Source: Deltaproteobacteria bacterium (GTDB lineage Bacteria > Desulfobacterota > DSM-4660 > Desulfatiglandales > HGW-15). Taken from it: DNA of 41,485 nt. Shown here in pieces: positions 8,309 through 25,444 of the stretch. Where the stretch lies: positions 1 to 41,485 of the forward strand of contig JAFDHB010000010.1 of assembly GCA_019308985.1 (NCBI GenBank), given 5' to 3'. How positions within the stretch are numbered: position 1 is the stretch's first letter; each line of letters opens with the position of its first letter. The notes beneath the pieces are model-generated. The model did no database searches. It was not told where the DNA came from and saw only the letters and a list, made by a program, of their open reading frames with translations. Made by a program: the position numbers and the translations under genes.

Positions 8309-10030
8309 ATGAATACGAAGGATTCCCCCACAGAAGTCATGGATACCGATGTGCTGGTCATAGGCGGAGGATTGGCGGGATGCCTTGCAGCAATAAAGGC
8401 AAGGGATCAGGGCGTCAGCTGTATTGTGGTAGAAAAGGCGAATATTGCGAGAAGCGGAAGTGGGGGGCCTGGCTTGGATCATTTGCCTTCAGTCGCGGAT
8501 GTAAGACTAAATGGAATTACCCCCGAAGAACTTGTGGAGGCCCGGGAAACAGGGGGATGGGGAAGTATTACGAATCATCGGTTAAACCTCATCCCGTCCA
8601 AGCACTCTGTTCAGGTGATCAAGGAACTGGAAAGGGCAGGGGTCCAAGTGGCGGAAGAGGATGGAACCTATAAATTTGCACCAGGCAGGATCCGAGCGGG
8701 GACGGATGGCGCTGCTGGAAGGGCAAAGCTCGGGGACTTTATCCTTTACAGGGGCGCTGACCTGAAATTAAAGCTGGCAGAGGCCGTAAGGAAAAGCGGG
8801 GCAAAGGTTATCAACAGAAGCATGCTGGTCGACCTGCTTACGAATGAGGGTCGGGTAGTAGGTGCCACGGCTTTCAATATACGTGACGGCAAATATATGG
8901 TGATCAAGGCAAAGGCGACAATTATCAGTACAGGAGGTGCCCACCGCCTGTATCAACAACCATATGGGACGTACCCCAATAGGCTCTTTCTTAATCATTA
9001 TTCACCGCTCGTTACGGGCGATGGGGCTGCCGCAGCTTATCGAGCTGGAGCGAAGTTAGTGAATATGGAATTTCTGATGATCCAACAGATGGATGCGGGG
9101 CTACCTCCTGGTCCTCGGCCAGTGCTTTTTGGTGGTTTGAAGAACTCGAAGGGCGAAGAGATCTTGAAGAAGCATAAAGATCTTCTCGAGAAATTGAAAG
9201 GCGAGTCTGCCTATCGATTTATGATGGCCGCAGCAAGGGAGAAGGGGGAGGTATTGGTCTGGGACACCACATCTCTGCCTGAAGAGGTGGAGCGCTACTG
9301 GGAATTCATGATGTCCAATGAAGACCCTCGCTCCCTCAAGTTCATGAAAGCCAGGGGGGGGCTGAGAAAGGCGCCCATACAATCCCGGACCCACATATGG
9401 GGACTTCGAAGGAGTGTTGCGGGTGTGATCATAGACGAAGAAGGCAAGGCCTCCTTACCAGGGCTGTTCGTGGCAGGCGACACCCAGGGAGGAGCCATTT
9501 CCACAGGTTCCATGGGGGCATTCGCGTGGGGTTATCTCTGTGGGCTCAAAGCGGGTGAATTCGCCAGGAATGCTGGAGCTCTCAACCCGATCGGCGCTCA
9601 AATAGAACGGATTAGACAAGATCTCTATGCCCCCCTGGCAAGAAAAGAAGGCGTCGATCCGCTGGAACTTGAGGACACTGTCCGAACTATGTTGACCGAT
9701 TACGCAGGCATGGAAAAACACGGTGCCAGGATGACCCGTTTTCTCGAGTTCTTGAAGCTGATCAGAGAAAGCTATAAACCAAACCTAAAGGCCAAGGATC
9801 CTCATGAACTGATGCATGTTCAAACCGTCAAGAATATGATGGAGGTGGCTGAACTGCATGTAAACTCATCGTTGATACGCACGGAAAGCCGTCTTATTCC
9901 TGCACACCATCGTGTCGACTATCCCGAGCAGGATGACGAAAAATGGGAGAATAGGACCGTTGTTGTCTGGCGGGAAGACGGAACCATGAGATTCAGCATT
10001 GAATCTCCCGAATGGGTACATGAATGGTAG
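8309..10030 (+). CDS. AprA/FrdA-like FAD-dependent oxidoreductase, flavoprotein subunit
   Basis: A 573-residue flavoprotein of the fumarate reductase/succinate dehydrogenase superfamily. VLVIGGGLAGCLAAIKA (residues 15-31) is the FAD-binding loop. EKANIARSGSGGPG follows, closely like the APS reductase alpha subunit. ATIISTGGAHRLY is the second dinucleotide contact, and LPGLFVAGDTQGGAISTGSM is the C-terminal FAD signature. The ATG at 8309 has GAGGAGG eight bases upstream; the longer frame from TTG 8288 does not. There is no Tat signal or membrane segment, so it is cytoplasmic. The gene for a 2x[4Fe-4S] protein follows 19 bp later, so the two probably form an AprAB-like electron-transfer pair. 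In the cassette it would oxidise or reduce an organic acid. Sulfate activation genes are absent, so APS reduction is unlikely. Confidence 0.88.
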   Translation: MNTKDSPTEVMDTDVLVIGGGLAGCLAAIKARDQGVSCIVVEKANIARSGSGGPGLDHLPSVADVRLNGITPEELVEARETGGWGSITNHRLNLIPSKHSVQVIKELERAGVQVAEEDGTYKFAPGRIRAGTDGAAGRAKLGDFILYRGADLKLKLAEAVRKSGAKVINRSMLVDLLTNEGRVVGATAFNIRDGKYMVIKAKATIISTGGAHRLYQQPYGTYPNRLFLNHYSPLVTGDGAAAAYRAGAKLVNMEFLMIQQMDAGLPPGPRPVLFGGLKNSKGEEILKKHKDLLEKLKGESAYRFMMAAAREKGEVLVWDTTSLPEEVERYWEFMMSNEDPRSLKFMKARGGLRKAPIQSRTHIWGLRRSVAGVIIDEEGKASLPGLFVAGDTQGGAISTGSMGAFAWGYLCGLKAGEFARNAGALNPIGAQIERIRQDLYAPLARKEGVDPLELEDTVRTMLTDYAGMEKHGARMTRFLEFLKLIRESYKPNLKAKDPHELMHVQTVKNMMEVAELHVNSSLIRTESRLIPAHHRVDYPEQDDEKWENRTVVVWREDGTMRFSIESPEWVHEW

Positions 10031-10049: not shown

Positions 10050-10280
10050 ATGAGCCACGGGCCGAGAATAGACTACTCAAGTTGTAAGAGTTGTAAGACC
10101 TGCTACGACATTTGTCCCATGGATGTATTCGGGTGGGACACTGAAAAGAACCTTCCCTTTGTGCTCCGTCCCGACGAATGCTCCTATTGTGTCTTGTGCG
10201 AGCTGGATTGCGCTGAACTCGCCATTGATGTCGAGCCCCCTCTTTGGGTTCGCGTCGAGCATTTGGAGCGCCGTACTTAA
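10050..10280 (+). CDS. Small 2x[4Fe-4S] ferredoxin partner of the flavoprotein
   Basis: A 76-residue ferredoxin. Eight cysteines sit in two C-x2-C-x2-C-x3-C groups: C12, C15, C18, C22 (SCKSCKTCYDICP) and C44, C47, C50, C54 (CSYCVLCELDC). This is the pattern for two cubane clusters and resembles the iron-sulfur half of APS reductase without that protein's C-terminal tail. The ATG at 10050 has GGAGGAGG eight bases upstream; an in-frame ATG at 9999 would overlap the flavoprotein gene and lacks a site. It is almost certainly translated together with the flavoprotein and carries electrons between it and a soluble or membrane carrier. It lacks an NAD- or quinone-binding partner here, so the final electron carrier is unknown. 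Confidence 0.92.
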   Translation: MSHGPRIDYSSCKSCKTCYDICPMDVFGWDTEKNLPFVLRPDECSYCVLCELDCAELAIDVEPPLWVRVEHLERRT

Positions 10281-10336: not shown

Positions 10337-11137
10337 ATGCCGGCAATTGTTGACTTGTCACATGAAATCTTTGAAGACATGCCCTCGCTTATCAAAGGGG
10401 CCCCTGTGAAGACTTGGATGTTGCATACCCATGACAAACCTCAGATATGGGACAAGGGCTTACCACCAACCGAATGGCATCAACTGCAAAAGGACGGTAA
10501 GGAGCCCTTTATGAGCCACGACACGATGATGTTGCTGCTTTCTGATCACGTAGGGACCCACGTGGATGCTCCGAGTCATACTTGCCCCAGGACGAAACCC
10601 CACGGGGAGACTATTGATGAGATTCCCTTAGAAAGACTGTGGATGCTGGATGCTGTCCTCTTGGACATGAAATACAAAAAGAAACATGACCCAATCCTGG
10701 TCACTGATTTCGAGAAGGCGGAAGAAGAAGCTGGGGTGGAAGTAAAGCCGGGAACAATGGTCATTGTGAATACAGGGAACTATGTCAATTTCGACAAGAA
10801 TCCCGTTGAGTATATTCAAATGCGAATTCATTTGACCCAGGAGTCGGCTGATTGGCTGGTATCAAAAAAGATCACGGCATTTGGCATGGATTCGGTGAAC
10901 TTTGACACTCACGGTCTTCCCGATGTGTCGGAACAGAGGCGAATGCATAGCCTTACCGTTGTCGGGCATCCGGTACATGAGACCTTGCTCTGTCAGAATG
11001 GAATCCTGCACGTGGAAGGACTTAACCTTAGGGATCTTGAGGAAACGGGCAAGACCAGATTCAAGTTCTGTGCTCTTCCGTTGAAGATACGCGGAGGGAG
11101 CGGCTCTCCAGTGAGGGCCATTGCCATAGTGGATTGA
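10337..11137 (+). CDS. Cyclase family protein (metal-dependent amidohydrolase/kynurenine formamidase-like)
   Basis: A 266-residue member of the 'cyclase' family (Pfam PF04199), which includes bacterial kynurenine formamidase and isatin hydrolase. The metal-binding motif HxGTHxDxPxH is complete at residues 71-81 (H71, H75, D77, H81). GMDSVNFDT near residue 175 and PVHETLLCQNGILHVEGL near residue 215 form the rest of the active site. These enzymes hydrolyse amide, lactam or lactone bonds using Mn or Zn. The ATG at 10337 has AAAGGAG eight bases upstream. The N-terminal half has an insertion-rich stretch (KTWMLHTHDKPQIWDKG) longer than in formamidase. It lies 56 bp after the ferredoxin and before the importer, so it probably acts on the imported compound or a product of it. 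Confidence 0.87.
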   Translation: MPAIVDLSHEIFEDMPSLIKGAPVKTWMLHTHDKPQIWDKGLPPTEWHQLQKDGKEPFMSHDTMMLLLSDHVGTHVDAPSHTCPRTKPHGETIDEIPLERLWMLDAVLLDMKYKKKHDPILVTDFEKAEEEAGVEVKPGTMVIVNTGNYVNFDKNPVEYIQMRIHLTQESADWLVSKKITAFGMDSVNFDTHGLPDVSEQRRMHSLTVVGHPVHETLLCQNGILHVEGLNLRDLEETGKTRFKFCALPLKIRGGSGSPVRAIAIVD

Positions 11138-11198
11138 ATACTTGTTGGACATGATTCAATCTTGCGGTGTCAACATCAAGGGAAAGGAGGTTTTATTT

Positions 11199-12290
11199 AT
11201 GGAACGCAAGGATACCATTAAACGATATAGCCTGATGGTAATGATGCTCGCTTTGATGTTTTTCTTTGTCAATACCGAAATCAGCCAGGGTGCGGATCCC
11301 TACGCGGAGGCCTTGGAAGATTGGCCGGCCATAGAGGCGGCAGCGAAAAAGGAGGGGAAGTTGGTCATCTATGGTTTTGCACAGCCTGATTGGGACAAAA
11401 GGAGGGTCAAGTTGTTCAATAAGCTCTACCCGGAGATCAAGGTCAAGAAACTGGCCATGAGAGGCTCGGAGGCCCGAAATCGTTTTGACGCGGAAATCGG
11501 GGCCAATAAGGGTTTGGGTGACGTCTCCTACCAAGGGGTAGATGCGGCATTTTCAATGAGTGAAAATGGGATGCTCCTCTCTTTCACGCCACCGAATGCC
11601 TTGGAACCGGACGTGCCCTGGACGACCCACCCCTTGGCGTACGCAAAGAACGCTTTTGTGTTCTACGGTACATACTACGGCATAGGGGTAAACAGAAAAC
11701 TGCTGGCCAAGAATGAGTATCCCAGAAACTACAGGGACCTGCTGAAGCCCAGGTGGAGGGGGAAATTCTCCCTGAAGGAACCTCGTATCCCGGGGTCCGG
11801 CAACTATTTCTGGTATACCCTCGAAAAGCTATACGGAAAGGGATTTCTCAGGCAACTCATGGATAACAAGCCCAAAGTAAAGAGGAGCTATTGGGACCAG
11901 GTGAAAGGCCTTGCAAGCGGCCAGGAAGAGCTGATGCTCATCATCAGCAAAAGCGAGACCATGAAACAACAGGCTAAGGGTGCGCCTATCGACTGGATCG
12001 CTCCCGAAGAGGGCATCATGCCAATAGTCATTTTGGCAGTTGTGTCAAAAGTGGCTCCACACCCCAACGCTGCCAAAGTGTGGATTAATTTCCTGCTCAG
12101 TAAGGAAAGACATCAGATGAGGGCAGCCAACAAGGGGGCACCATGGCGTTCGGACGTTGCCGCAGGATCAGCATACGAGGATATAGCAAAGTTGAAACCG
12201 ATCACTGTATTCTCAACCGAGGAGTGGAGAGAGGTTCTGCCCAAAAAAAGAAAAGAAGCAGAAGCACTATTGAAGGAATATGGCCTTTAG
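11199..12290 (+). CDS. ABC transporter substrate-binding protein (Fe3+/organic-acid type, copy 1)
   Basis: A 363-residue periplasmic binding protein. Residues 1-31 are a signal peptide (basic MERKDTIKRY, hydrophobic LMVMMLALMFFFV, probable cleavage after SQGA). The mature part starts with WPAIEAAAKKEGKLVIYG and later has PHPNAAKVWINFLLSK, the hallmarks of the family-1 extracellular binding proteins related to FbpA, PhnS and AfuA. That family binds ferric iron, but many members bind phosphonates or organic anions, and the catabolic neighbours favour an organic substrate. The ATG at 11199 has AAGGAGG eight bases upstream; the earlier ATGs at 11142 and 11151 are not supported. It is followed by its permease and ATPase. 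The second binding protein at 18920 is a distant relative. Confidence 0.9.
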   Translation: MERKDTIKRYSLMVMMLALMFFFVNTEISQGADPYAEALEDWPAIEAAAKKEGKLVIYGFAQPDWDKRRVKLFNKLYPEIKVKKLAMRGSEARNRFDAEIGANKGLGDVSYQGVDAAFSMSENGMLLSFTPPNALEPDVPWTTHPLAYAKNAFVFYGTYYGIGVNRKLLAKNEYPRNYRDLLKPRWRGKFSLKEPRIPGSGNYFWYTLEKLYGKGFLRQLMDNKPKVKRSYWDQVKGLASGQEELMLIISKSETMKQQAKGAPIDWIAPEEGIMPIVILAVVSKVAPHPNAAKVWINFLLSKERHQMRAANKGAPWRSDVAAGSAYEDIAKLKPITVFSTEEWREVLPKKRKEAEALLKEYGL

Positions 12291-12403
12291 CAGCCCTTGA
12301 AGATGATGGCAGAGGCCGGTGGCACGGATCGACGTAATAGCAAAAGAGGCCAGACCCGATAGAACCCCAGCACGGTATCTATGAGAAGGGGGGATCAAGG
12401 CTA

Positions 12404-14101
12404 GTGGGAAGAGTCAATGCTGTAATCCTTTTTCGGGGACTGATTACGGCGCTTATGATTTTCTTTATCCTTTACCCATTGGGTATGATCTTCTACGCCG
12501 GATTCTTGAAAGGGAGCCCTGCAAATCCAGGAGGATATGATTTGGAGGGCTTCCGCCGAGCATATTCCAACCCGGCTCTGCCGCGGCTTATTTGGACAAC
12601 CCTGTGGCTCGCCCTCTGCCGATCCTGCATCAGCACTACTCTTGCCATCGCGGTAACCTGGATCATTACGCGTACCAATACCCCATTGAGACATTTTTTC
12701 GAAAGGATATTCGTCTTCAAATTCTTTCTCCCCTATCTTCCAATTATTTTGGCATGGGTGTTGCTTTTCCAAAGAGATGTAGGGATGTTCAATATGTTCC
12801 TGGAAAGAGTTATCGGACTTCCCAGATCTCCGATAGATATCAATTCCTATGGTGGGATTATCTTCGCGAGTGTTATGGGAATGTTCCCTTTCTTGATTAT
12901 TTTTCTCATTCCCGCATTCAGAAATGTCGATAGTAGCCTGGAGGAGGCCTCTAGGATGTCAGGGGCCTCCTGGTTTACGACGATATGGAAGATATACTTA
13001 CCCTTGTTAAGGCCAGCCATCTTCGCAGCCTTTATTATCAGCTTTGTCTTGGCCATAGAGTCATTTGAGACGGAGCTGTTTCTAGGATTCGATAAAGGTA
13101 TCAGGGTGTTCACGACCGCCATCTTCGAAAACATCTTTTTTCGGAATCCCCCGCGATTTCAGGATGCAATGGCCTTGTCTTCTGCCTTATTCCTCACGAC
13201 CATTACCCTCATAGTTATCCAGTGGAAGCTCCTGGGGACGAAGGAGTACACCACTATTTCGGGAAAGCAATACGCGGTGAGGCCTATTGATCTGGGTGCC
13301 TGGAGGTACGTGACCTGTGGAATTGTTGTCGCTTTTCTCTTCCTGGTCCTGTTGCTTCCTTTAGCGGTCCTGGTCCAGGGATCATTCATGAAGATCATCG
13401 GGTACTTCCAGCATGATATGTATACCTTGGAATATTGGAAAGAGGCGCTGGCAAGTGAGGGTCTGATGGAGGCCTTGAAGAATACAATTATCGTTGCAGT
13501 CGTGTGCGCCACGGTCGGGATGGGCTTTTGCTCGGTAATAGCCTATTTGGTCGTGAGGACCAAATTCAAGGAACGAAAACTACTCGACATTATGGCCTGG
13601 TTACCATGGGCAGTACCGAGGCTGGTTCTTTCTTTGGGCTTTCTGTGGGCCTTCCTCTTGTTCCCTCCTACTTCCTTCCTCTACGGCACCATGGGAATCC
13701 TCATAATTGCCTTGATGATCAAAAGCCTGCCCCTGGGGACAAGGCTAATGAGCACAACCATGATCCAAATACACAAGGAACTGGAAGAATCTTCGTGGGT
13801 GCACGGAGCTTCAACCGCACAGACTTTCTGGCGCATTCTAGTGCCGCTGCTTTTGGGGGCGTTTCTATCTGGATGGATATTACTTTTTACTTTGGCAGCC
13901 AAAGACTTGAGTACTGTGATTCTCCTCTATGGTCCCAACTCAAGCGTGCTTTCGACCGTAGTATTCGAACACTGGGATGGGGGATGGATGCAATCGGCTG
14001 TCGTGGTAGGTTTAATCCAAACGTTGGTTCTACTGGTCGCATATATTGTATCGCAGAGATTCCTTTCCAGGCTGTCAAGGACGGTTTCCTATGCAGGCTA
14101 A
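12404..14101 (+). CDS. ABC transporter permease, fused double domain (copy 1)
   Basis: A 565-residue inner-membrane permease made of two fused halves, each with about six membrane helices, as in FbpB/ThiP-type importers. Each half has an EAA loop, which couples to the ATPase: EEASRMSGASWFTTIWKIYL at residues 180-199 and EESSWVHGASTAQTFWRIL in the second half. The start is a GTG at 12404; a run of six G lies about ten bases before it, so initiation is plausible but not proven. It lies between its binding protein (113 bp upstream) and the ATPase (177 bp downstream). It carries the substrate from the binding protein into the cytoplasm. It shares order, size and EAA motifs with the permease at 20312-22066. 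Confidence 0.93.
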   Translation: MGRVNAVILFRGLITALMIFFILYPLGMIFYAGFLKGSPANPGGYDLEGFRRAYSNPALPRLIWTTLWLALCRSCISTTLAIAVTWIITRTNTPLRHFFERIFVFKFFLPYLPIILAWVLLFQRDVGMFNMFLERVIGLPRSPIDINSYGGIIFASVMGMFPFLIIFLIPAFRNVDSSLEEASRMSGASWFTTIWKIYLPLLRPAIFAAFIISFVLAIESFETELFLGFDKGIRVFTTAIFENIFFRNPPRFQDAMALSSALFLTTITLIVIQWKLLGTKEYTTISGKQYAVRPIDLGAWRYVTCGIVVAFLFLVLLLPLAVLVQGSFMKIIGYFQHDMYTLEYWKEALASEGLMEALKNTIIVAVVCATVGMGFCSVIAYLVVRTKFKERKLLDIMAWLPWAVPRLVLSLGFLWAFLLFPPTSFLYGTMGILIIALMIKSLPLGTRLMSTTMIQIHKELEESSWVHGASTAQTFWRILVPLLLGAFLSGWILLFTLAAKDLSTVILLYGPNSSVLSTVVFEHWDGGWMQSAVVVGLIQTLVLLVAYIVSQRFLSRLSRTVSYAG

Positions 14102-14278
14102 CTCCATTATTTTAGGCAGAGAACAGGGGCGACAGAAAAAGAGGGGCAAGATATGAGGATCGGAACTCAAGGTCCTCCAAGGGTTGAGTTATGAAAAATT
14201 GCATTTGAATGGGTATCGTGAAGCGGAAGGAACCGCCCCATATCCAATCATTGATGATTTGACAGGAGACGGCAAACG

Positions 14279-15379
14279 ATGATCAGAGTCGAGTCTTTGT
14301 CCAAGTGTTATGATACAGGTCGCGGTAAGGTCAGAGCCGTAAGAGACATGGACTTTGAAGTCGAAAGAGGGGAATTCTTCACTTTGCTTGGCCCCAGCGG
14401 ATGCGGCAAGAGCACTACCTTGCGGTGTGTGGCGGGACTCGAAAGGCCCGAAAGCGGTAGAATCTATATCGGAGATGACCTTGTGTTTTGTGGTGAAACA
14501 CGGCTTTTTGTTCCCCCCAACAAAAGAAATATCGGAATGGTGTTTCAATCATACGCCATTTGGCCGCATATGACTGTCTTTGACAATGTGGCCTATCCAT
14601 TGAGGGTGAGTAAGAAAAGGTTCTCAAGAAAAGAGATAAGGGATAAGGTCGAAGAAGCATTGCTTATGGTAAGGCTCGGTGGCTTGTTCGAACGGCCCGC
14701 CACACAGCTGAGCGGGGGACAGCAACAGAGACTGGCCTTGGCGCGGGCAATTACTCGAGAACCTAACATCCTCCTGCTGGATGAGCCTTTGAGCAATCTT
14801 GATGCCAAACTCAGGGAGGAGATGAGGATCGAGCTGAGAGATCTTGTTCGCAGACTGGGAATAACAACCCTGTACGTGACCCACGACCAGATAGAGGCCT
14901 TAGCCATGTCGGACAGAATCGCAGTGATGTCCGAGGGTGTCCTACAACAACTGGACAGGCCTGCACAATTATACAATAGCCCCAAAAACAAATTCGTGGC
15001 CAGCTTTTTGGGTGCCGCGAATCTTTTTTCAGGAGAGGTTGAATTGGACTCGGCAGGAGGTGCGCGAGGGACAGTGAATACGGAACTAGGCCATCTGATA
15101 TGCCATCTTCCTGAAGGGATGAAAAACAAGGACCGTGTAATTGTTTCAGCCAGGCCTGAGAAGATAGGGATTTTCCAGGAAAAGCCCCCCGAGGGAGAGA
15201 ACTTGATAAGGGGAAATCTCCAAAGCATCGTCTTCCTTGGCGACAGCACGGATTGCCGGGTCGGGGTAAAGGACTTGTCTGTACGGGTCAAAACGGTTTC
15301 CACGGGATCGCTTAAGGAAGGAGACAGCATTTACATCCAGTTGGATCCACGGATCTGTACGATAATACCAATTGATTGA
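14279..15379 (+). CDS. ABC transporter ATP-binding protein
   Basis: A 366-residue importer ATPase of the FbpC/PotA type. Walker A is GPSGCGKST (residues 38-46), the Q-loop is VFQSYAIWPHMTVFDNV, the signature is LSGGQQQR (144-151), Walker B is ILLLDEP (164-170), and the switch His is H202 in VTHDQIEALAMSDRI. Residues from about 240 form the TOBE-type regulatory domain, with VIVSARPEKIGI. The start is the ATG at 14279 with AGGAG ten bases upstream. It is the only ATPase in a cassette with two binding-protein/permease pairs, so it may serve both. The ferric-iron reading of the family is possible but not required by the sequence. Confidence 0.95.
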   Translation: MIRVESLSKCYDTGRGKVRAVRDMDFEVERGEFFTLLGPSGCGKSTTLRCVAGLERPESGRIYIGDDLVFCGETRLFVPPNKRNIGMVFQSYAIWPHMTVFDNVAYPLRVSKKRFSRKEIRDKVEEALLMVRLGGLFERPATQLSGGQQQRLALARAITREPNILLLDEPLSNLDAKLREEMRIELRDLVRRLGITTLYVTHDQIEALAMSDRIAVMSEGVLQQLDRPAQLYNSPKNKFVASFLGAANLFSGEVELDSAGGARGTVNTELGHLICHLPEGMKNKDRVIVSARPEKIGIFQEKPPEGENLIRGNLQSIVFLGDSTDCRVGVKDLSVRVKTVSTGSLKEGDSIYIQLDPRICTIIPID

Positions 15380-15397: not shown

Positions 15398-15742
15398 GTG
15401 AACAAGGATACTGTGATTAATATCTCGGCCTTCGATATTGAACCAGGGTCGGAGGGGGATTTCTTTTCCTGGTACGACGAAATCCATATCCCTATGCTTC
15501 TCAAATTCCCCGGCCTTAGAAGGGCATCGAGAGCTGAAAAAAGAGAAGAAAATGACCAATATCCAAGATTCCTTACCATCTTTGAATTCGAAGATGAAGA
15601 GGCGTTTGCAGCATATTTGACAAGTCCGGAGCTTAGGGGGGCCCACAGGGATGCAACCGTTAGAAGCTCTGAAAAGAGAGACAGGGTGGGAAGATGGCGG
15701 GTTCAGTACAGAGTAAAGAAGACTTGGACTAAAGAGCCATAA
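15398..15742 (+). CDS. Small protein of probable ferredoxin-like (EthD/Dabb-type) fold
   Basis: A 114-residue cytoplasmic protein. The pattern is strand-helix-strand-strand-helix: INISAFDIEPGSEGDFFSWY, then DEIHIPMLLKFPGLRRASRA, then RFLTIFEFEDEEAFAAYLTS. This resembles small alpha+beta-barrel proteins such as EthD, Dabb and antibiotic-monooxygenase-like domains, which often act as dimers on small organic molecules. I do not recognise a specific family. The start is a GTG at 15398 with AGGGGG eleven bases upstream. It lies only 18 bp after the ATPase stop, so it is probably co-transcribed. The 150 bases after it contain a possible long-range stem (15821-15829 with 15860-15868). Confidence 0.7.
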   Translation: MNKDTVINISAFDIEPGSEGDFFSWYDEIHIPMLLKFPGLRRASRAEKREENDQYPRFLTIFEFEDEEAFAAYLTSPELRGAHRDATVRSSEKRDRVGRWRVQYRVKKTWTKEP

Positions 15743-15892: not shown

Positions 15893-16459
15893 ATGATTGA
15901 AGGCAGGATCACTTATTTTGAGAGTTCAGGAGCAGAAAATACAGATGCAGTTCTTGAGATCGTTGGGAAGAGGGCAAAGGAATTGGATGTCAAGAAGATA
16001 GTCATAGCATCCAGGACAGGGGATACGGCTGTTAAGGCTGTCATGGCCCTCGAAGGCTTCAAGTTGGTTGTTGTCAGCCATTCAACAGGATTTGATAGTC
16101 CCGATGTCCAGAAGTTCTCGGTAGATAATAGGAAGATCGTAGAAAGTAAAGGCGGTGTCATTCTTACCATGACACATGTATTCGCAGGAATCCACCGGGC
16201 CATGAGAACAAAGTTCAATACCCACGTAACAGGTGATGTCATGTCAAACACTCTGCGTATATTCGGGCAAGGGATGAAGGTTGCCTGTGAAATAGCAATG
16301 ATGGCCGCAGATGGAGGTCTGGTTCGCACGGATGAGGATATTATATCAATCGGGGGGACTCGATATGGGGCGGATACAGCGATCTTGCTGAAGCCTCTCA
16401 ACAGCCATCAGTTCTTTGACCTCAGAATCCGGGAGATCCTCTGCAAGCCCCGGTTCTGA
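15893..16459 (+). CDS. Stand-alone pyruvate kinase C-terminal (alpha/beta) domain protein
   Basis: A 188-residue protein that matches the pyruvate kinase alpha/beta domain family (COG1751), found without the catalytic barrel. It has NTDAVLEIVGKRAKELDVKK, then IVIASRTGDTAVKAVMALEG, then VVVSHSTGFDSPDVQKFS and DIISIGGTRYGADTAILLKP. In pyruvate kinase this domain binds the allosteric effector; free-standing versions in archaea and anaerobes have no known function. The ATG at 15893 has GGAG eight bases upstream. It cannot have pyruvate kinase activity because the barrel is missing. It lies 44 bp before the selenoprotein gene, and the two are probably translated from one mRNA. A role in binding a phosphorylated or carboxylated metabolite of the pathway is speculative. 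Confidence 0.85.
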   Translation: MIEGRITYFESSGAENTDAVLEIVGKRAKELDVKKIVIASRTGDTAVKAVMALEGFKLVVVSHSTGFDSPDVQKFSVDNRKIVESKGGVILTMTHVFAGIHRAMRTKFNTHVTGDVMSNTLRIFGQGMKVACEIAMMAADGGLVRTDEDIISIGGTRYGADTAILLKPLNSHQFFDLRIREILCKPRF

Positions 16460-16503: not shown

Positions 16504-18213
16504 ATGTCCTCTAGAATCAATTCGGTAAAACTGGAGACCCTTTGTCCGACTCCCCCTCGATCCATTGAAGGGGAAAACGCCCCACGCCTGGATTCTGTGG
16601 AGGGGAAGACTATTTGCGAGGGCTGGCCCCTATCAGGGTGGCGGGCTGACGAAACCTTTCCTCTGATCAGGGCACATCTGAAGAGGAGATTCCCAACCAC
16701 AAAGATAATCCCGTACACAGAATTTCCCCGCCTAAATCTGTCACCTCTGCGGGGGCAACTGGATAACGCGATCCCTCTCGAACAAATCGGTCAAATATTG
16801 AAGGGCATGGGCTGCGATGGAGTGATATTGGGCAACGGTGGGTGAACTTGCGCAGGGCCTCAAAGCGCTGTAGGCGCTTTAATAGAGAAAAGCGGTATTC
16901 CCGTCGTCTCCATAGTAACAAAGGAATATAAAGGACTTGCAGAAACCTTCGCAAGGGCGCGGGGGTTACCTTCCATAGCGACAGCCTTGATTCCCTTTGA
17001 AGTGATTTCAGCTCCCACAGGGGAAGTTCGAATGTCCTGGGAGCCGATCATTCAGGAAATTGTATATGGGTTAACTGGTTGGAAGTCCAGTGTAGAAGAT
17101 GTACAGGATGGCCCTCTTATCTTCGAAGCTCGCACCTATCAAGGTGCGGTTGACAAGATGGAGGACATGTTTCTGTCTCGTAAATGGAGCGACGGACTGC
17201 CTTTGGTTCCTCCCACAAGGGACCGGGTCGATTGGCTGTTGACGGGCACTGATCTTGATCCTCACGAAACACTGACCAGAGATTTCGGACCCCGTTTCTG
17301 TCCCATCCGTGTCCGAGATGTTGCTGTCAATGCTGCAATGGCAGGCGCAAGACCGGAATATATGCCTGTCATTCTTGCTACCATAAAACTCCTCGGAAGC
17401 AAAGATGGACTGGAGGTGATGTATCCTCTTACACAAAGCCAGCATTCCTTTGCCCCTGTGATCATCATAAATGGCCCCGTTGCAAGGGAGTTAGACATCA
17501 ATGGTTCAATCGGTTTGATGGGCCCAGGGAATAGAGCGAACGCAACCATAGGCAGAAGCATCAGCCTGTTGCTCATCAATGGGGCGGGGGCCTATGCGGG
17601 CCAAGGGGGACTTCCGACCACCCACAGCCTGCCGGGTCGATATACCTGGTGTTTTGCTGAAAACGAGGAAAATAGCCCATGGGAGCCCCTTCATGTTGAG
17701 CTGGGTCACGAGCACCCGGAGAGCACGGTGACAGTTATGGGAGGACGGGGGACTCAGGCCCTTATGGTCAGTCCACCGGCGACCAAGATCCTGAATTCGA
17801 TCAAAAGGGCTTTGGAAGGGGTTACAGTGACGCGGTACCCCATTCCGTGGGATCAGCTTCTGATTTTGAGTCCTGAACACGCCCGGGTACTTGTAAGGTC
17901 TGGCTGGTCAAAAGCAGAGATAAAAAGGTATCTTCACGAAAACGCATCAATCAGCGAGGAAGAGGCGGTGGCCGCCCGTAGTACACTCTCAAAAGAAAAA
18001 GGAGAGTATCCAGAAAAGGGGAGCATGATTGGCAGACCAGTTCCGGTTATCGCCAAACCAGATCATCTCGTAATCATAGTAGCCGGCGCCACCGGAGCAA
18101 ATACCTCCACTTTCATCCCAAGTATCATGAAAAGGGTGACTGGGCAAATAGATCCCTTCAAGCCCGCCAATTGGAAAGAACTCCTTGAGGAGGGACGAAA
18201 AGGCGCACGCTAG
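16504..18213 (+). CDS. UGSC-like selenoprotein with in-frame UGA at codon 114
   Basis: One 569-residue protein if the TGA at 16843-16845 is read as selenocysteine. The ATG at 16504 has AAGGAAGG eight bases upstream. Residues about 30-112 run LDSVEGKTICEG to GMGCDGVILGNGG, then Sec114-Thr-Cys116-Ala-Gly. After the UGA the frame stays open with GIPVVSIVTKEY, GLAETFARARGLPS and ALIPFEV. As I recall the UGSC-type (seleno)proteins, these segments follow their UGSC motif. A hairpin fitting a bacterial SECIS lies 16 bases after the UGA (16862-16880). Residues about 175-569 form a second domain also seen in long members: RVRDVAVNAAMAGARPEYMP, then GPGNRANATIGRSISLLLIN, then WCFAENEENSPWEPLHVELG. Biochemical function is unknown; Sec-x-Cys suggests redox or thiol chemistry. 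The motif here is U-T-C, not U-G-S-C. A gene caller would report 16504-16845 and 16987-18213 as separate genes. Confidence 0.85.
16862..16880 (+). promoter_or_regulatory. bSECIS-like hairpin for selenocysteine insertion
   Basis: AAAGCGC at 16862-16868 pairs perfectly with GCGCTTT at 16874-16880 around the loop TGTAG. The loop begins 23 bases after the UGA (16843-16845) and carries G at its second position followed by U. Known bacterial SECIS elements have a short stem, a G in the first two loop positions, and a UGA-to-loop distance of roughly 16 to 37 bases; this fits. It is inside the coding sequence, as in bacterial selenoproteins generally. Confidence 0.75.
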
Positions 18214-18363: not shown

Positions 18364-18570
18364 ATGACTGAAGATATACCCTTTAGGTGTGAGTTCTGTG
18401 AAAGGTCCATCAACCATGAACCTGTTAGAAAAAAGATCAGGGGGAAAGATCATAGGTTTTGCAGCCAGAGCTGTTTCGTTCTATGGCGTTACGACATGCC
18501 ACGGAACGATCGGGAAGTCTTCTACTCTAAGTATGTTGTGCCAGTGCCGGTCTCGAACATTGACGACTAA
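18364..18570 (+). CDS. Small TRASH-like zinc-finger protein
   Basis: A 68-residue protein with CEFCERSI near the N-terminus and FCSQSCFVLWRY in the middle, giving C9-x2-C12 ... C33-x3-C37 (counting from the ATG). This two-pair cysteine arrangement, with an aromatic after the last Cys, resembles TRASH/YHS-type metal-binding modules. These bind Zn or Cu and occur in metal sensors and in small proteins of unknown role. The ATG at 18364 has GGAGAG seven bases upstream. It lies 150 bp after the selenoprotein gene and 350 bp before the second binding-protein gene. A role as a metal donor or sensor for the cassette is a guess. Confidence 0.72.
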   Translation: MTEDIPFRCEFCERSINHEPVRKKIRGKDHRFCSQSCFVLWRYDMPRNDREVFYSKYVVPVPVSNIDD

Positions 18571-18919
18571 CTTCATGCATTGTCCGTCTTTTACAGAATG
18601 GCCTCCGATTTCGAGGAAAACAGAGTGTTAATAGGGGGTGGTATCATTCATTCGGGGAGAAGCATAGGATGGAATGGCTTGTGGGTTGCAAGAGCTCCGT
18701 GAACCCGCGTCTTCCACCTGGGTGAACTCGGCATCCATGGTCTTGCTGGAATGCCTCATGGGGTGTTGCGTTGCTTATCGGGCCCCTTGCAAAGGCATTC
18801 AGGTTTGGGAGGTTTTCAATCTGATGCACCTCGGCTCAAAGATGAGGGCTAGAGGGAGGTAAAGCCGCTTTCAATAGGGGGGACAGCATTATTCACCTTA
18901 AATGCAAAGGAGGACTCGT
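18571..18919. other. Gene-free gap of about 350 bp
   Basis: No convincing gene. A 62-codon open frame (18674-18862, plus) and one of 61 codons (18644-18829, minus) overlap each other. Neither has a ribosome site or recognisable sequence. No promoter or terminator was clear. The right end carries the AAAGGAGG ribosome site of the next gene. Confidence 0.6.
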
Positions 18920-19990
18920 ATGAAAACAAGAAAACTTGTGATTGGGAGAGTGATCTTTGTTTTGGTTTCCCTATTCTGCGCTGGCTTGGTCACAGCACCC
19001 ACGGTCCTAGCACTTGATTGGAAACAGATTGAGGCGGCCGCCAATAGGGAAGGGATGCTAACGGTATACAGTCCCACAAGAGCGAAGGATGCAGAGGAAT
19101 TGGCAAAGGCCTTTAACCGGGAGTATCCAAAGATCAAGGTTGAGTGGGTCCTGGGGCGTGGTCTTCTGGAGAGGGTCAAGACCGAAATAGCTGCAAGGCG
19201 CATTGTCTGCGATGCCTTTCAAGGCGGAACATCCAGCACAGTGCCGGCAGTTGACATGGGCATATGTGAAATGTTTGTGCCGCCAGCTCTTTCCGCTCCC
19301 GGCGTCAAATGGAATCTCCCGATGAACAAAATCCTCGTCAAGAATGGCCTCGCTGTTTGGCGACAAGTGAGCGTGGTCTCAGCCATGTGGAACACAAAAG
19401 TGGTGCCCGAAAATATTCGTCCCAGGTCCTTGCAGGACCTGACGGCCCCAAGGTATAAGGGACTCATCGCCTTCGATAATCCCAAATCTCGCGGCACCGG
19501 CATTATGCTGATCCACGCGGCTAGGGAAATTGCCCCCGATAAGCTGGGCGAGCAATGGATTCGAGAATTCATGAAAAACGCAGTGATTTCATCCTTCAGA
19601 AAGATCCGCGCACAGATTACGACCGGGGAATACGGTATAGGGCTCCCCATGAGCACGGGTTCGGCTGCAGCGGCAGCGAGAAAGGGGGCCCCTGTGAAAT
19701 TCTTAACCTTCAGCGAGGGATTGATCCTGTCGCCTACTGCGACATGGATCGTCAAGGGCTGCCCCCACCCCAACGCCGCCAAGGTATTCGCAAATTGGGT
19801 TATGACGAAAAATGGGCAGCAAGCCGCTGCAAGGTTGGGCGGAGGAGCGCCTCTGATGGCAGGAGTTGTGCCGCCGGACCCCAATCTCAATATCGAAGGC
19901 AAGCCTATCCTTTATAGCCTGACATATGAATCCACCAAAGCTCAACAGAAGACGATGAAATGGGCCGCGACTTCGGGCATATTTGACTGA
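18920..19990 (+). CDS. ABC transporter substrate-binding protein (Fe3+/organic-acid type, copy 2)
   Basis: A 356-residue periplasmic binding protein. Residues 1-32 are a signal peptide (MKTRKLVIGR, hydrophobic VIFVLVSLFCAGLV, probable cleavage after TVLA). The mature part begins LDWKQIEAAANREGMLTVYS and later has PHPNAAKVFANWVMTKNGQQ, the same family hallmarks as the first copy at 11199. Overall they are clearly diverged, so they probably bind different, related ligands. The ATG at 18920 has AAAGGAGG six bases upstream; the upstream ATG at 18902 does not. The gene is followed by a 321-bp gap and then its permease. No ATPase follows. The ligand is not readable from the sequence. Confidence 0.9.
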   Translation: MKTRKLVIGRVIFVLVSLFCAGLVTAPTVLALDWKQIEAAANREGMLTVYSPTRAKDAEELAKAFNREYPKIKVEWVLGRGLLERVKTEIAARRIVCDAFQGGTSSTVPAVDMGICEMFVPPALSAPGVKWNLPMNKILVKNGLAVWRQVSVVSAMWNTKVVPENIRPRSLQDLTAPRYKGLIAFDNPKSRGTGIMLIHAAREIAPDKLGEQWIREFMKNAVISSFRKIRAQITTGEYGIGLPMSTGSAAAAARKGAPVKFLTFSEGLILSPTATWIVKGCPHPNAAKVFANWVMTKNGQQAAARLGGGAPLMAGVVPPDPNLNIEGKPILYSLTYESTKAQQKTMKWAATSGIFD

Positions 19991-20311
19991 TAGTGGAAGC
20001 TGGGCTGTAACGGAGGAGGGCTCTGGGGTGATTATTTTGAGATACACAGGTGTTTCTAGCCCTATTCGACTATTTTGACCCCTGGCATCCAAGATTGTCT
20101 GCAGTGAACGGGCTGTTGCCTCAAGCCTGACAACAATGGCTAAGCAGTGCTGTGATAGGCTTTATTGGGCACAAAGCGAATGAAAGGATTTGGGCAAGAG
20201 CCTGTGAAGACGTGACCATTATTCCCTCATTCTTAGGAGAGCTGTATTTCATAAGTCAATAGTTTGGAGGGAAAGGGTTTCTTAGGCCGATTAGGGGGGC
20301 CTCCATAGATC
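19991..20311. other. Gap of about 320 bp between second binding protein and permease
   Basis: I see no gene, clear promoter, hairpin or repeat here. Such a long gap between a binding protein and its permease is unusual in importer operons, where spacing is normally a few tens of bases. A terminator-like or mRNA-stability element that lets the binding protein be made in excess is possible but not visible. Confidence 0.55.
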
Positions 20312-22066
20312 ATGTCCTTGAATGACCTGGCCAGAGGTATAACGAGACAAACATATTTTCCGTCACGAAAATGGCTGCGCGTCGATATATCACTGCTGTT
20401 TATGATGGGCCTATTGACCGTGACTATCTTTCTGGTAGTCTATCCCATGGGAATGGTCTTCTATGGTAGCTTCTGGAGCTCATCCCCTGGATGGCCAGGA
20501 CATTTTACCGCTGAAGGCTACAAACAAGCCTTCGAGGATCCTAAGACACTGTCACTTATCTGGACAACTGTCTGGCTTGCTGCCGCCCGCACCGCGCTTT
20601 CTGTAGCCATGGCAATATTGCTTGCGTGGATTATTGCACGGACGGACACTCCCTTCAGGGGGCTACTCGAAAAGCTGCTCTTCGTGAAGTTCATTCTTCC
20701 CATATTGCCATTACTCTTGGGTTGGATACTCCTTGCCAGCCCCCGCACAGGCATCCTCAACATTGTTTTGATGAGGTTATTGCCACTTAAGAGTCCACCC
20801 TTAAACATATATTCTTTTGGTGGCATCATTTGGGTCAGTGTAATTGGCTGGGCGTCGCTTTTGGCCATATTTCTCCTGCCAGCATTTCGCAACATGGATG
20901 CAAGCCTAGAGGAGTCTTCGAGGATGTCAGGAGCTGGCACCTTTACAACCATTTGGCGTATCACCATCCCACTCATGGCCCCTACTATCTTGGCTACCGT
21001 GATACTCGGTTTTGTGCGCATGTTGGAATCCTTTGAGACTGAACTCTTCCTGGGGTCGGGGGCGCACATCTGGGTCTTTACGACAAAGATTTTTGATTTC
21101 ATTTTCAATAGGCTTAGCGCCCAGTATAACAGTGCCATGGCCCTTGCGGTGATCCTTCTCAGTATCACGTTCCTTTTGGTTGCGCTCCAGTGGATCATAT
21201 TGGGGAAAAAGGAGTTCACAACCGTCACAGGGAAAGGCTACCATCCCCGTCCGATAAGGCTGGGGCGCTGGAAGTATGTGACGGTCGCCTTTGTGCTGAC
21301 TTGGTTTTTCTTGGCAGTCATCCTGCCTCTGGGGGTTGTTGTCCAAAGTTCTTTCATGAAGGTGGCCGGTGGATATGACATTGAGGGAGGGATCTATACT
21401 TTGGAACACTGGAGAAGTGTTCTAAGTGTAGGCATGTTTTGGATGTCTGTCAAAAACTCCCTTTACGTGGCCGTGGGCAGCGCAACGATCGGTATGCTGC
21501 TCTATACACTCGTGGCCTATGTGGTTACGAGGTCAAGTTTCGCAGGCAGGAAGATCCTAGATCTCATCTGCTATATCCCGTGGGCCATGCCCGGCATTGT
21601 TCTTGCTCTGGGCTTTGTCTGGGCATTCATGTCGCTCCCCATTACCGCACCCCTGTATGGAACCTTATGGATCATGATCATGGCATACCTAACCAGAGGG
21701 TTTCCACTCGGCACAAGGACAATGACGAGCACCATGATCCAGATACATAGAGAGCTTGAGGAGAGCGCCAGGGTGCATGGGGCATCTTGGACCAGGACCT
21801 TCGTGTCTATCTGGCTTCCTCTGTTGAAAAGCAGTTTGATAACGGGCTGGATATTTCTTTTTGTGATCGCCTTCAAGGACCTCACGGTGGTCGTGTTGCT
21901 TTACGGATCCAAGACAATGGTCCTTTCGACGTTGTTTTTCAGTTACTGGGACAGTGCCGACTTAGAGGAAGCCTGCGTTACGGGCTTAATCATGTTCCTT
22001 ATCACCTTCATAGGCTGTATGATTGTGTTGCGTATCGGAAAGGGGGCTGGAGAGGCAGCTTTGTGA
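20312..22066 (+). CDS. ABC transporter permease, fused double domain (copy 2)
   Basis: A 584-residue inner-membrane permease with two fused halves of about six helices each. The EAA loops are EESSRMSGAGTFTTIWRITI in the first half and EESARVHGASWTRTFVSIWL in the second. It is a clear paralogue of the permease at 12404-14101, sharing FYGSFWSSSPGWPGH-like and ARTDTPFRGLLEKLLF-like blocks. The start is the ATG at 20312; a G-rich stretch lies about twelve bases before it, so the exact start is uncertain, and an ATG 31 codons in is an alternative. It should pair with the binding protein at 18920. No second ATPase is present, so it may use the product of 14279-15379. The PrpD-like gene follows after 34 bp. 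Confidence 0.92.
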   Translation: MSLNDLARGITRQTYFPSRKWLRVDISLLFMMGLLTVTIFLVVYPMGMVFYGSFWSSSPGWPGHFTAEGYKQAFEDPKTLSLIWTTVWLAAARTALSVAMAILLAWIIARTDTPFRGLLEKLLFVKFILPILPLLLGWILLASPRTGILNIVLMRLLPLKSPPLNIYSFGGIIWVSVIGWASLLAIFLLPAFRNMDASLEESSRMSGAGTFTTIWRITIPLMAPTILATVILGFVRMLESFETELFLGSGAHIWVFTTKIFDFIFNRLSAQYNSAMALAVILLSITFLLVALQWIILGKKEFTTVTGKGYHPRPIRLGRWKYVTVAFVLTWFFLAVILPLGVVVQSSFMKVAGGYDIEGGIYTLEHWRSVLSVGMFWMSVKNSLYVAVGSATIGMLLYTLVAYVVTRSSFAGRKILDLICYIPWAMPGIVLALGFVWAFMSLPITAPLYGTLWIMIMAYLTRGFPLGTRTMTSTMIQIHRELEESARVHGASWTRTFVSIWLPLLKSSLITGWIFLFVIAFKDLTVVVLLYGSKTMVLSTLFFSYWDSADLEEACVTGLIMFLITFIGCMIVLRIGKGAGEAAL

Positions 22067-22100: not shown

Positions 22101-23558
22101 ATGACGACATCATTCAGAAGTGAAACCGTCTGGTATGAGAAAAAGGCCTCCAGGCCTTTCAGCCTAGAATTGGGTACATTTGTTGAGACAATGGAATACC
22201 GAGATCTGCCCGACTATGTGATTCACGAGACAAAGAGGGTTGTATTCGATTCCGTTGCCTGTGCATTGGGAGGGACAACTTGTGACAAGGGAAGAATCTC
22301 GATTGAGGTCGCAAGAAAGATTGGTGAGGCACGGGATTCCTCGATCATTGGCACCTCTCATCGTGTATCCTGCGCCAGTGCTGCGTTTGCTCACGGTGAA
22401 CTCATCAGTGCCCTTGATTTTGATTCATTTGAAATTCCCCAAGGGCACATTCCCCCTTGCTGCGTTCCTCCTCCGCTATCGGTGGCTGAAAGCACTGGTG
22501 CCTCCGGTCGGGACTTGATCTTGGCAACAGCTCTCGCCCTCGAAGTTGAATGCCGCATCCACCGGGCGCTGACACCCAGGGTGGAAGTCCTTGACGCAGG
22601 GGCTGGGAAGACAAGGGTCGCTTTTGGAGAAAGTCAGTACGTGTTTGGCGGGGCTGCAGGAGCGGGCAAGCTCTTGGGGCTAGACGGGGAAAGGATAGCC
22701 CATGCGCTGAGTATTGCTGTTCACTTTTGCCCTGTCCCCGTTGGAAGGAAATTCCAGGTCACAAAGTCCCCTCTGGCAATGACAAAATATGGGGAATCCG
22801 GATGGCCAGCGATGGGCAGCGTTGTCGCAGCACTCCTGGCCAGTTCAGGTTATGTTGGTGATCTTTGGGCCTTTGATGGGGAGTTCGGATTCTGGAGGAT
22901 GTATTCCTATGGCGATTGGGAGCCCCATAAGGCCCTTGAGCAACTGGGTCAATCTTGGGTCTTTCCTGGGCTCGCGTTCAAACCCTATCCATGTCATCGA
23001 ACCATAAACGGCCCCCTGGATGCCTTTACCTTTCTTATTGAACAACACAATCTCAGACCGGAAGAGATAGATCTGGTCAGGGTTTTCGGGAATCCCAAGG
23101 TGATGAACCAGTATCGGAAGGATCACATTGGAACCCATGTGGCTGCTCAGTTCCATGTACCCCACAATGTCGCGTGTGCTGCTTTCAGACTCAAACCAGG
23201 GCCGGACTGGCAAAGGCGGGATGTCATAAACGACGAGAAGATTGCAGCCTTTAGGGATAAGGTCATAACCGAAGGCTTGCCCGGCTGGGAAGACAGAGTC
23301 AAGGATGATCCAAAAAAGCGGTGGGGCGGTGCAGTGGAGGTTACGGCCCGGGGGAAAATATACAGAGAGGACAGACTGTATGCCAGGGGGACTGCCTTGC
23401 CCGAGCTGGAGATGAGCGAAGAGGAAATGAAAGAGAAGTTCAGGAACTGTGCTGAAGGCATATTGACTCGGGAGAACACGGAAATGGCAATCAACTACCT
23501 CTCGGGACTGGACGAGGCGGATGATGTTCGGGATATTATGAACTTGCTGAAGCCATAG
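22101..23558 (+). CDS. MmgE/PrpD family protein, copy 1
   Basis: A 485-residue member of the MmgE/PrpD family, which includes 2-methylcitrate dehydratase, cis-aconitate decarboxylase and iminodisuccinate epimerase. Family signs are DLPDYVIHETKRVVFDSVAC, GELISALDFDSFEIPQGHIP, AHALSIAVHFCPVPVGRKFQ, the lysine-histidine motif FKPYPCHRTINGPLDAF and a C-terminal KKRWGGAVEVTARG. It is a cytoplasmic enzyme that likely adds or removes water or CO2 on a dicarboxylic or tricarboxylic acid; the substrate is not known. It has about 20 extra residues at the N-terminus compared with copies 2 and 3. The ATG at 22101 has only a weak AGGTAGAG in front. It is the first of three adjacent paralogues and lies 34 bp after the permease. 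Confidence 0.9.
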   Translation: MTTSFRSETVWYEKKASRPFSLELGTFVETMEYRDLPDYVIHETKRVVFDSVACALGGTTCDKGRISIEVARKIGEARDSSIIGTSHRVSCASAAFAHGELISALDFDSFEIPQGHIPPCCVPPPLSVAESTGASGRDLILATALALEVECRIHRALTPRVEVLDAGAGKTRVAFGESQYVFGGAAGAGKLLGLDGERIAHALSIAVHFCPVPVGRKFQVTKSPLAMTKYGESGWPAMGSVVAALLASSGYVGDLWAFDGEFGFWRMYSYGDWEPHKALEQLGQSWVFPGLAFKPYPCHRTINGPLDAFTFLIEQHNLRPEEIDLVRVFGNPKVMNQYRKDHIGTHVAAQFHVPHNVACAAFRLKPGPDWQRRDVINDEKIAAFRDKVITEGLPGWEDRVKDDPKKRWGGAVEVTARGKIYREDRLYARGTALPELEMSEEEMKEKFRNCAEGILTRENTEMAINYLSGLDEADDVRDIMNLLKP

Positions 23559-23759
23559 AATAACGTAAAGCTACCACGTCGGTCTATCCTAGCAGATAAG
23601 GAGAGGGAGCCCTGTCGAGGGCGGGCGAAAGGCCCGGGCCAGACAAGGAATTGGATTGATTCCTTTTGACATGATTGAGGCTGGTGAATCCCTTCTGGGA
23701 GTCGTCGGGTGGTGAAGACTCGAGAGAAATGGGACTTACATCCCTTTGGGGACGATAGG

Positions 23760-25187
23760 ATGAATACCTTCAGCAAGGAAATAGCCGGTTTTATCTTAGA
23801 AACTGATTTCGAGGATCTTCCCGATGCCGTGATACGGGAATCGAAGCGTATTATCATGGACAGTCTCGCATGCGCACTCGCAGGTGTCGAGAGTGACAGG
23901 GGGAAATATGCCGTTGCATTATCCGAAAGGTTGGGAGGCCCGCGGGAAGCATCAATTATCGGGACATCCTTCAAGGGTTCCTGTGCCTACACGGCCTTTG
24001 CCAACGGCGAATTAGTCAATGCGCTGGACTATGATGCACTTGAGATTCCTCCTGGTCATACTCCTCCCTATGTCATACCGGCGGCGCTTTCAATGGCCGA
24101 ACACACCGAAGCCACGGGTAAAGACTTGATCCTAGCCGTGGCACTGGGGCACGAAGTGGCCGCCAGGATCGACAGGGCTCTAGTCCCACGAAAGGGAGCT
24201 GTCAAAGAAGAGACAGAATGGCAGCAATCGAGGCAAAGGGAGGAGAGTTACCTAGCCTCCGGGCAGAGCCATCTCCTATTCGGAGGGACGGCGGCGGGAA
24301 GCAGGCTTTTGAATCTCGATGAGACGAAGATCATCCATGCCCTTGGAATAAGCGGACATTTTTGCCCCATCCCGACAAATAGAAAGTTCCAAGCATTCAT
24401 GCCCTCAGCAATGACAAAATACGGAACCAGCGGCTGGGCATCCATTGCATCAGTTACAGCAGTTTTGCTAGCCGAGCTGGGCTACTTGGGGGACACTTCC
24501 CTTTTTGAAGGGGAGTATGCTTTTTGGAGGATGTATTCCTATGGCGGTTGGGAGCCCGATAAGGCCCTTGAGAAGATCGGAAAGACCTGGTTCTCTGTGG
24601 GTATGGGATATAAGCCCTATCCTTGCCATCGGGCGATGCACGGGCCCTTAGACTGTTTGATGAGCATCCTTCACGGTAATGCCATAATGCCAGAAGAAAT
24701 AGAGCGTATAAGGGTATTGGGAAACCCCGCGATCTTTGAGTCCCGGTACCCCATGGAAGTGCCAAATCACGTCGCTGCCCAGTTTAATCCTTTGTACATT
24801 TTTTCCTGTGCAGCGAATAGGATCGATGCAGTTTACTGGCAGTCACAGGATACCATGAAAAGCCCGGAAGTCTTGAGGTTCATGGAGAGAATCGTCCTCG
24901 GAGGTCTCCCAGACATGGCCGAGAGAATGGGGAGAGATCCGAGAAGTCGCTGGGGCGGCACCGCGGAGGTATTCGCAAGGAGCAAGAAATACATGGAAAC
25001 CAGGATGTTTGCCAAAGGGACTTCCGGAACGGAGGCGGAAATGACGGATGACGAACTTATTGACAAATTCCGGCGCAGTGGATTTAGGGTGCTTCCCGGC
25101 GAAAAGATGGATAGGGCCGTAAGTTACTTGTGCGAGCTTGAGGATGTGAAGGACATAAAGGGACTGATGAGTGAAGTGACCTTGTAG
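23760..25187 (+). CDS. MmgE/PrpD family protein, copy 2
   Basis: A 475-residue paralogue of the preceding gene. It has DLPDAVIRESKRIIMDSLAC, GELVNALDYDALEIPPGHTP, IHALGISGHFCPIPTNRKFQ and YKPYPCHRAMHGPLDCLMS. The ATG at 23760 was chosen because the protein then starts MNTFSKEIAGFILETDFEDL, which lines up with copy 3; GGGGA lies about seven bases upstream. A GTG at 23709 would add 17 unmatched residues. It has an extra stretch after VPRKGAVKEETEWQQSRQRE that is absent from the others. A 201-bp gap with no clear promoter separates it from copy 1. Identities between the copies are moderate by eye, so the duplications are old and the substrates probably differ. Confidence 0.9.
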   Translation: MNTFSKEIAGFILETDFEDLPDAVIRESKRIIMDSLACALAGVESDRGKYAVALSERLGGPREASIIGTSFKGSCAYTAFANGELVNALDYDALEIPPGHTPPYVIPAALSMAEHTEATGKDLILAVALGHEVAARIDRALVPRKGAVKEETEWQQSRQREESYLASGQSHLLFGGTAAGSRLLNLDETKIIHALGISGHFCPIPTNRKFQAFMPSAMTKYGTSGWASIASVTAVLLAELGYLGDTSLFEGEYAFWRMYSYGGWEPDKALEKIGKTWFSVGMGYKPYPCHRAMHGPLDCLMSILHGNAIMPEEIERIRVLGNPAIFESRYPMEVPNHVAAQFNPLYIFSCAANRIDAVYWQSQDTMKSPEVLRFMERIVLGGLPDMAERMGRDPRSRWGGTAEVFARSKKYMETRMFAKGTSGTEAEMTDDELIDKFRRSGFRVLPGEKMDRAVSYLCELEDVKDIKGLMSEVTL

Positions 25188-25444
25188 CGGGTTATCATGA
25201 TAGACAAGGATGCCCCATTCCAATAGTAAAGAGTATATTGCCATTGGTGGCGTATCTTTCAGGCTTAGAGGGAGAGGGCGAGCCTGCGAATTTATCCAAT
25301 ATTAGGTTGAGACGAAGGAGGGTGTCCGCTGTCTGAACGAATAATAAGGTCCAAACGCCCTTGTGAAGGGTTGTCTAGGGAGGAGGGAGGACCGTCCAGT
25401 CAAAGGGTTAAGAGAGGTTGGAAACCGAGGGGGAGGCCTGCCTA

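Follow-up and report, generated by a model that had tools for sequence, protein, structure and literature searches.

Positions 16504 to 18213 of the window (the whole stretch of 41,485 nucleotides that was analysed, from contig JAFDHB010000010.1 of the Deltaproteobacteria bacterium assembly GCA_019308985.1) very probably form one intact gene, which encodes a variant selenoprotein of the UGSC family with an internal UGA read as selenocysteine (Sec). A single plus-strand frame runs from ATG 16504 to TAG 18213 and yields 569 residues when TGA is translated as U; it has just one internal TGA, codon 114 at 16843-16845 (Sec114). The initial annotation had proposed a hidden selenoprotein at this place, and its account of the frame was accurate: beyond the TGA the frame stays open for 1368 nt up to the TAG, and 47 open codons separate the TGA from the first downstream start, TTG 16987. 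The start at ATG 16504 is consistent with the homologues and has AAGGAAGG eight bases 5' of it; ATG 16480 is an alternative. The motif around the Sec codon is GNGG-U-TC, i.e. U-T-C. It had also been anticipated that standard annotation would break such a gene, and the protein database indeed has only a 393-residue C-terminal piece (P0002) for this window.

Is the TGA decoded, or does it end a protein? The strongest evidence that it is read as Sec comes from a survey of stop codons across relatives. The survey used the query protein with X at residue 114 and covered 129 loci (19 of them, L001-L019, retrieved on account of sel genes and tRNA); in-frame stops of any codon were listed, and a protein pattern served to pick out the ones at the UGSC motif. 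There were 62 motif-site stops, in 55 loci and 60 distinct sequences, and every one was TGA (60 single, two tandem TGA TGA); neither TAA nor TAG was found among them in the 129 loci searched. The same stretches held 130 other stops, namely 85 TGA-type, 26 TAG-type and 19 TAA. Records with the motif-site TGA are titled Chloroflexi, Rokubacteria, Betaproteobacteria, Acidobacteria, Deltaproteobacteria, Nitrospinae, Planctomycetaceae, Firmicutes and others. (Three metagenome-assembled genome records, L104, L123 and L125, are titled Bordetella parapertussis; these labels look doubtful.) Of the 80 named loci, 32 have the TGA site; many of the remaining loci match the C-terminal domain only, and a few carry Cys. 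In the nearest named relative, L111 from Chloroflexota (48% identical), TGA occupies the same codon, the motif being GNGG-U-GCAGPQSAVGA against GNGG-U-TCAGPQSAVGA in the window. Homologues do not all end at this position either: P0004-P0007, which are 44-47% identical, are full-length and have Cys at position 114, as do L050 and further UGSC proteins at the Sec position.

Taking the TGA as a real stop would split the gene into a 113-residue protein and a separate protein starting at 16987 or later. That P0002 begins after the TGA would fit this, as would the starts of the closest homologues (P0003-P0046, the 44 that follow the window's own protein, from the best 120 of 2,778 matches): 39 of the 44 begin after residue 114, 24 of these at residue 123, and the rest have Cys (four) or Gly (one) at the site. 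Such late starts are also the pattern of truncated selenoproteins in databases, and would mean that a whole sub-branch of UGSC is truncated there. We consider a split gene very improbable, because the codons between the TGA and the downstream start encode protein that is conserved in L111 and the Cys homologues, because this TGA is found again in records from many phyla, with no TAA or TAG among the 62 sites, and because full-length Cys proteins exist. An error of sequencing or assembly, or a pseudogene in decay that carries a single nonsense mutation, might be suspected in an assembly as fragmented as this one (5.06 Mb in 418 contigs, 91.5% complete, 5.9% contamination); given that independent assemblies share the TGA at this site and that the frame is otherwise intact and conserved, we judge this, too, highly unlikely. 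Genome-wide reassignment of TGA, for example to Trp or Gly, is scarcely credible: no support for it was found in 29 window frames or in the homologues at the site. TGA closes 10 of these 29 frames as an ordinary stop and is internal in the selenoprotein frame only, and homologues mostly have Cys at the site, with none seen to have Trp.

In the selenoprotein reading, the UGA would be decoded by SelB and tRNA-Sec with the aid of a hairpin on its 3' side. Bacterial Sec insertion sequence (bSECIS) elements have a G within the first two loop bases, and their loop lies 16-37 nt from the UGA. The candidate here is AAAGCGC-TGTAG-GCGCTTT, which can alternatively be drawn with 8 bp, a U-G closing pair and the loop GTA. 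The 7-bp stem and TGTAG loop reported initially are confirmed; the reported offset of 16-34 bases had been counted from zero, and the hairpin occupies nucleotides 17-35 after the TGA. A bSECIS-type score built on these criteria was compared with 300 nucleotide and 300 codon shuffles, and was equalled by 1.3% and 4.3% of them, respectively. Hairpins better than codon shuffles (p<0.1) occur at 32 of the 60 distinct TGA sites (31 of 60 with nucleotide shuffles), these sites being related sequences and the tests not independent trials. Among the Cys homologues, none of four distinct sequences has a hairpin that beats codon shuffles (p 0.46 to 1). In L111 a 5-bp hairpin stands equally far from the TGA (24 nt).

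The sel genes were sought in the source assembly, and all were found: selA (622.5 bits), selB (375.1) and selD (386.3) score above cut-off, and selC is represented by a tRNA-Sec (73.1 bits with Infernal, also reported by ARAGORN, anticodon tca). Further TGA-containing genes of this genome are selD itself and grdB (G000:C211, C248, C341), the GrdB genes on C248 and C341 having one TGA each. The window contig looks native, because its enolase, the sole one in the assembly, is 78-81% identical to those of six genomes of the same family and one of the same order. The source genome has a single UGSC match. The selenoprotein is 45-49% identical to Chloroflexota copies, at most 40% to the matches listed for its relatives, and at most 39% to those from its phylum, for which 395 genomes were examined with no more than three candidates scored in each. 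This greater closeness to Chloroflexota copies than to own-phylum matches suggests that the gene was acquired by horizontal transfer.

The relationship to UGSC proposed at the outset holds, with corrections. Pfam PF24696 (UGSC) matches residues 13-191 with 49.3 bits (gathering cut-off 25); NCBIfam NF041046 (UGSC family (seleno)protein) gives 31.7 bits and does not reach its cut-off of 125, and U-T-C stands in place of the U-G-S-C motif. Judged by its sequence, the protein belongs to the UGSC superfamily as a divergent form with a U-x-C motif and is no orthodox member. Its N-terminal domain is predicted to be Rossmann/flavodoxin-like, the best VIA matches of the model being B12-domain-like, receiver and PurE folds. 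The C-terminal domain has distant resemblance to class I fumarase/Toblerone-fold enzymes only.

The Sec region can be aligned with selenoproteins of a better-defined kind. With hhalign, GrdB (7 sequences) is matched with P values of 9.4e-9 to 4.9e-8, Sec falling on Sec and UGSCT over UGTCT (reversed-template control 0.051), and PrdB-like proteins (3 sequences) are matched with a P value of 2.2e-5, again with the Sec columns aligned (reversed control 0.31). NCBIfam GrdB/PrdB models match residues 93-171 weakly: TIGR01918 scores 15.3 bits (cut-off 65.45) and TIGR04483 14.2 bits (cut-off 300), neither cut-off being reached. Going by these alignments, the Sec-bearing core is homologous to that of GrdB/PrdB, and the region appears to resemble selenium-dependent enzymes that cleave bonds within small nutrients. 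Hence the initial description, a 569-residue selenoprotein of unknown function, keeps its first half, and the hhalign relationship narrows the second. No function is assigned to UGSC in those literature passages on the family that were consulted. In the portions of the UGSC literature covered, section 9 of PMC13188914 included, there is no statement linking UGSC to GrdB/PrdB, and such a statement may exist elsewhere.

The hhalign results, the weak NCBIfam matches and the adjoining importer and catabolic genes together point to a nucleophilic, GrdB/PrdB-like reductase of an imported compound; we put this forward as a possibility that falls a little short of an even chance. The N-terminal Rossmann-like domain would place Sec114 at a strand-to-helix turn, as Sec is placed in GrdB/PrdB-like proteins. 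The selenolate would attack a substrate taken up through the importer encoded next to the gene and cleave a carbon-heteroatom bond in it reductively; Cys116 could then resolve the product as a selenenylsulfide. A cell reductant would regenerate the Sec enzyme, possibly through the cluster's flavoprotein and ferredoxin, and binding or preparing the substrate would fall to the C-terminal domain. Computation supplies the reading frame, the Sec position, the family, the sel genes and the GrdB/PrdB alignment; the chemistry, substrate, electron donor and co-function of the operon are what we infer, and are offered as predictions. More broadly, and more tentatively, UGSC may form a third lineage beside GrdB and PrdB in one superfamily, made up of importer-linked two-domain selenoenzymes that cleave carbon-heteroatom bonds of imported compounds, exist in many copies and include sub-branches with an altered Sec motif (U-x-C; U-U-G-C). 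Tying the UGSC Sec site to GrdB/PrdB would give the family a concrete and testable chemistry.

All genes of the window cluster, from an IclR regulator to a short-chain dehydrogenase, lie on the plus strand (Table 1). Three MmgE/PrpD paralogues in a row (22101-26842) adjoin two ATP-binding cassette (ABC) importer sets. The small FCS/TRASH-like zinc finger directly downstream of the selenoprotein gene has no convincing counterpart at other UGSC loci, and no GrdB/PrdB partner subunit was named among the scanned window neighbours, no search having been aimed at GrdA, GrdC or PrdA. Neighbours of other family members were sampled by taking at most five frames from each of the 32 named TGA loci (148 in all) and dropping frames of at least 700 residues, which left 135. 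Twenty-four of these were excluded by hand, mostly because they were antisense to or overlapped a UGSC gene (some were short or at contig ends), and 111 were scanned. Counted from the best 25 of 100 families, the 111 frames included TctC (8), SBP_bac_5 (5), UGSC (4), DctM (2) and TctA (1). In L111, TctA, TctC and a dehydratase-like gene lie near two UGSC genes. These genes would fit a role of UGSC enzymes in processing small molecules that the cell imports, the importer differing from copy to copy; this is the weakest link in the proposal.

A number of observations count against the reading developed here. At the level of RNA, segments of 41-61 nt fold with a plain minimum free energy (MFE) in the ordinary range (z +0.32, +0.18, -0.64), and for 16840-16900 the MFE structure is not the hairpin at 16862-16880, so the hairpin alone is modest evidence; under the criteria used, 6 of the 60 TGA sites have no hairpin. 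In P0009, a Chloroflexi homologue, Gly takes the place of Sec (GNAGGGAA), and the protein is possibly redox-inactive. Enolase is 62-64% identical to that of six other genomes of the family, UGSC-rich ones among them, and three more genomes give distant matches only; kinship inside the family is therefore loose. The alignment to GrdB/PrdB is confident over about 37-87 columns only, the templates were built from few sequences (7 and 3), and a weaker match also falls in the N-terminal part of GrdB (P 7.5e-5, 33 columns). Foldseek with the whole model found no PDB match below E 1e-3. Within 6-kb flanks, any one gene of the window cluster accompanies just 0-7 of the 80 named relatives, and the neighbourhood argument is weak, because importers are common genes and the counts come without a background rate. 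Finally, the authors of the Global Ocean Sampling (GOS) survey, in the part of it consulted, guessed a thioredoxin-like fold for UGSC (PMC2398784). A selenoprotein with such a role, acting as a general thiol/peroxide redox protein without substrate-cleaving reductase activity, could form a selenenylsulfide from its U-x-C pair. We think this unlikely, although by no means negligible, since the N-domain is predicted to be Rossmann/flavodoxin-like, since the Sec region aligns with GrdB/PrdB-like proteins, and since the gene lies beside importers and catabolic enzymes.

Among 61 genomes (the source genome and 60 relatives), 11, the source genome included, have UGSC matches, and four of them have 13, 23, 19 and 16; the Chloroflexota genome of L111 has 16. 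G005, G008, G016, G002 and G204, with 13-23 matches per genome, many of them with an in-frame TGA, represent a large paralogue expansion. In G005, 18 of the 23 match rows contain at least one TGA, a count made without row-by-row checking of motif position and including some fragments. Genomes with 13-23 matches suggest a set of UGSC enzymes, perhaps one per substrate. An earlier survey, as far as it was consulted, gives 26 and 33 for UGSC, taken here as organisms and genes (PMC5029168), and 255 sequences place UGSC among the commoner selenoprotein families of aquatic metagenomes in the part of PMC2398784 consulted. In three genomes from two genera the motif has a tandem TGA TGA (GFGG-UU-GC; GFGG-TGATGA-GC) amid differing surrounding codons, and a 7-bp hairpin follows it in L044 and L049. 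If both were decoded this would be an adjacent Sec-Sec pair (U-U-G-C); a non-exhaustive literature search found nothing relevant on consecutive or adjacent UGA or Sec. Two other genes have several in-frame TGAs, four in G205:C435:1205-2941 (L157) and two in G005:C126:10715-12106 (L141), and may be decayed or multi-Sec.

Table 1. Features of the window and of tandem-UGA relatives (window positions unless a locus is named)
Feature	Position	Strand	Evidence
IclR-type regulator	7333..8112	+	PF01614, PF09339
Fumarate-reductase/AprA-like flavoprotein	8288..10030	+	PF00890, PF02910; NCBIfam
4Fe-4S ferredoxin-like protein	10050..10280	+	Fer4 matches; PF00037, PF13237 above cut-off
Putative cyclase (arylformamidase-like)	10337..11137	+	PF04199
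ABC importer: solute-binding protein (11142-12290), double permease, ATPase	11142..15379	+	Pfam/NCBIfam-type profile matches
Small ABM/DUF4286-like protein	15398..15742	+	
Pyruvate-kinase C-domain-like (PK_C-like) protein, directly upstream of selenoprotein	15893..16459	+	PF02887
Predicted UGSC-family selenoprotein gene, 569 aa, Sec114	16504..18213	+	TGA=U translation; PF24696; full-length Cys homologues P0004-P0007
N-terminal Rossmann-like domain with Sec (predicted), residues ~32-195	16597..17088	+	model m154d4e1719e5, VIA-align, hhalign
UGA codon, predicted to be read as Sec (GNGG-U-TC)	16843..16845	+	aligned Cys in P0004-P0007; same TGA in L111; 62/62 motif-site stops TGA
bSECIS-like hairpin, 7-bp perfect stem, loop TGTAG	16862..16880	+	sequence; shuffle score; L111 hairpin
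C-terminal domain, residues ~205-569	17116..18210	+	no Pfam match above cut-off
68-aa zinc-finger (FCS/TRASH-like) protein, directly downstream of selenoprotein	18364..18570	+	PF06467, 27.6 bits (cut-off 22.4)
Second solute-binding protein (18902-19990) and double permease	18902..22066	+	
Three MmgE/PrpD proteins	22101..26842	+	PF03972, PF19305
Short-chain dehydrogenase (SDR)	26860..27627	+	PF00106
Tandem-UGA UGSC genes	L044 (site 1753 of reverse complement), L049 (804), L140 (459)	- (L044)	

How does the protein compare with known systems? It shares with the UGSC family the N-terminal domain (by Pfam) and the position of Sec or Cys, and with many members of comparable length the alignment extends across the C-terminal domain; it differs in having U-T-C instead of U-G-S-C, its closest relatives having U-G-C or C-G-C. 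The UGSC/Unknown_1 fusion of the GOS survey, compared by its description in the part of PMC2398784 consulted, likewise joins a UGSC domain to an uncharacterised conserved domain. With GrdB and PrdB the likeness lies in the Sec-containing core, a strand, turn, Sec, helix and E-x-x-G-I-P strand, whereas good alignment is confined to the Sec region and the C-terminal domain is another one.
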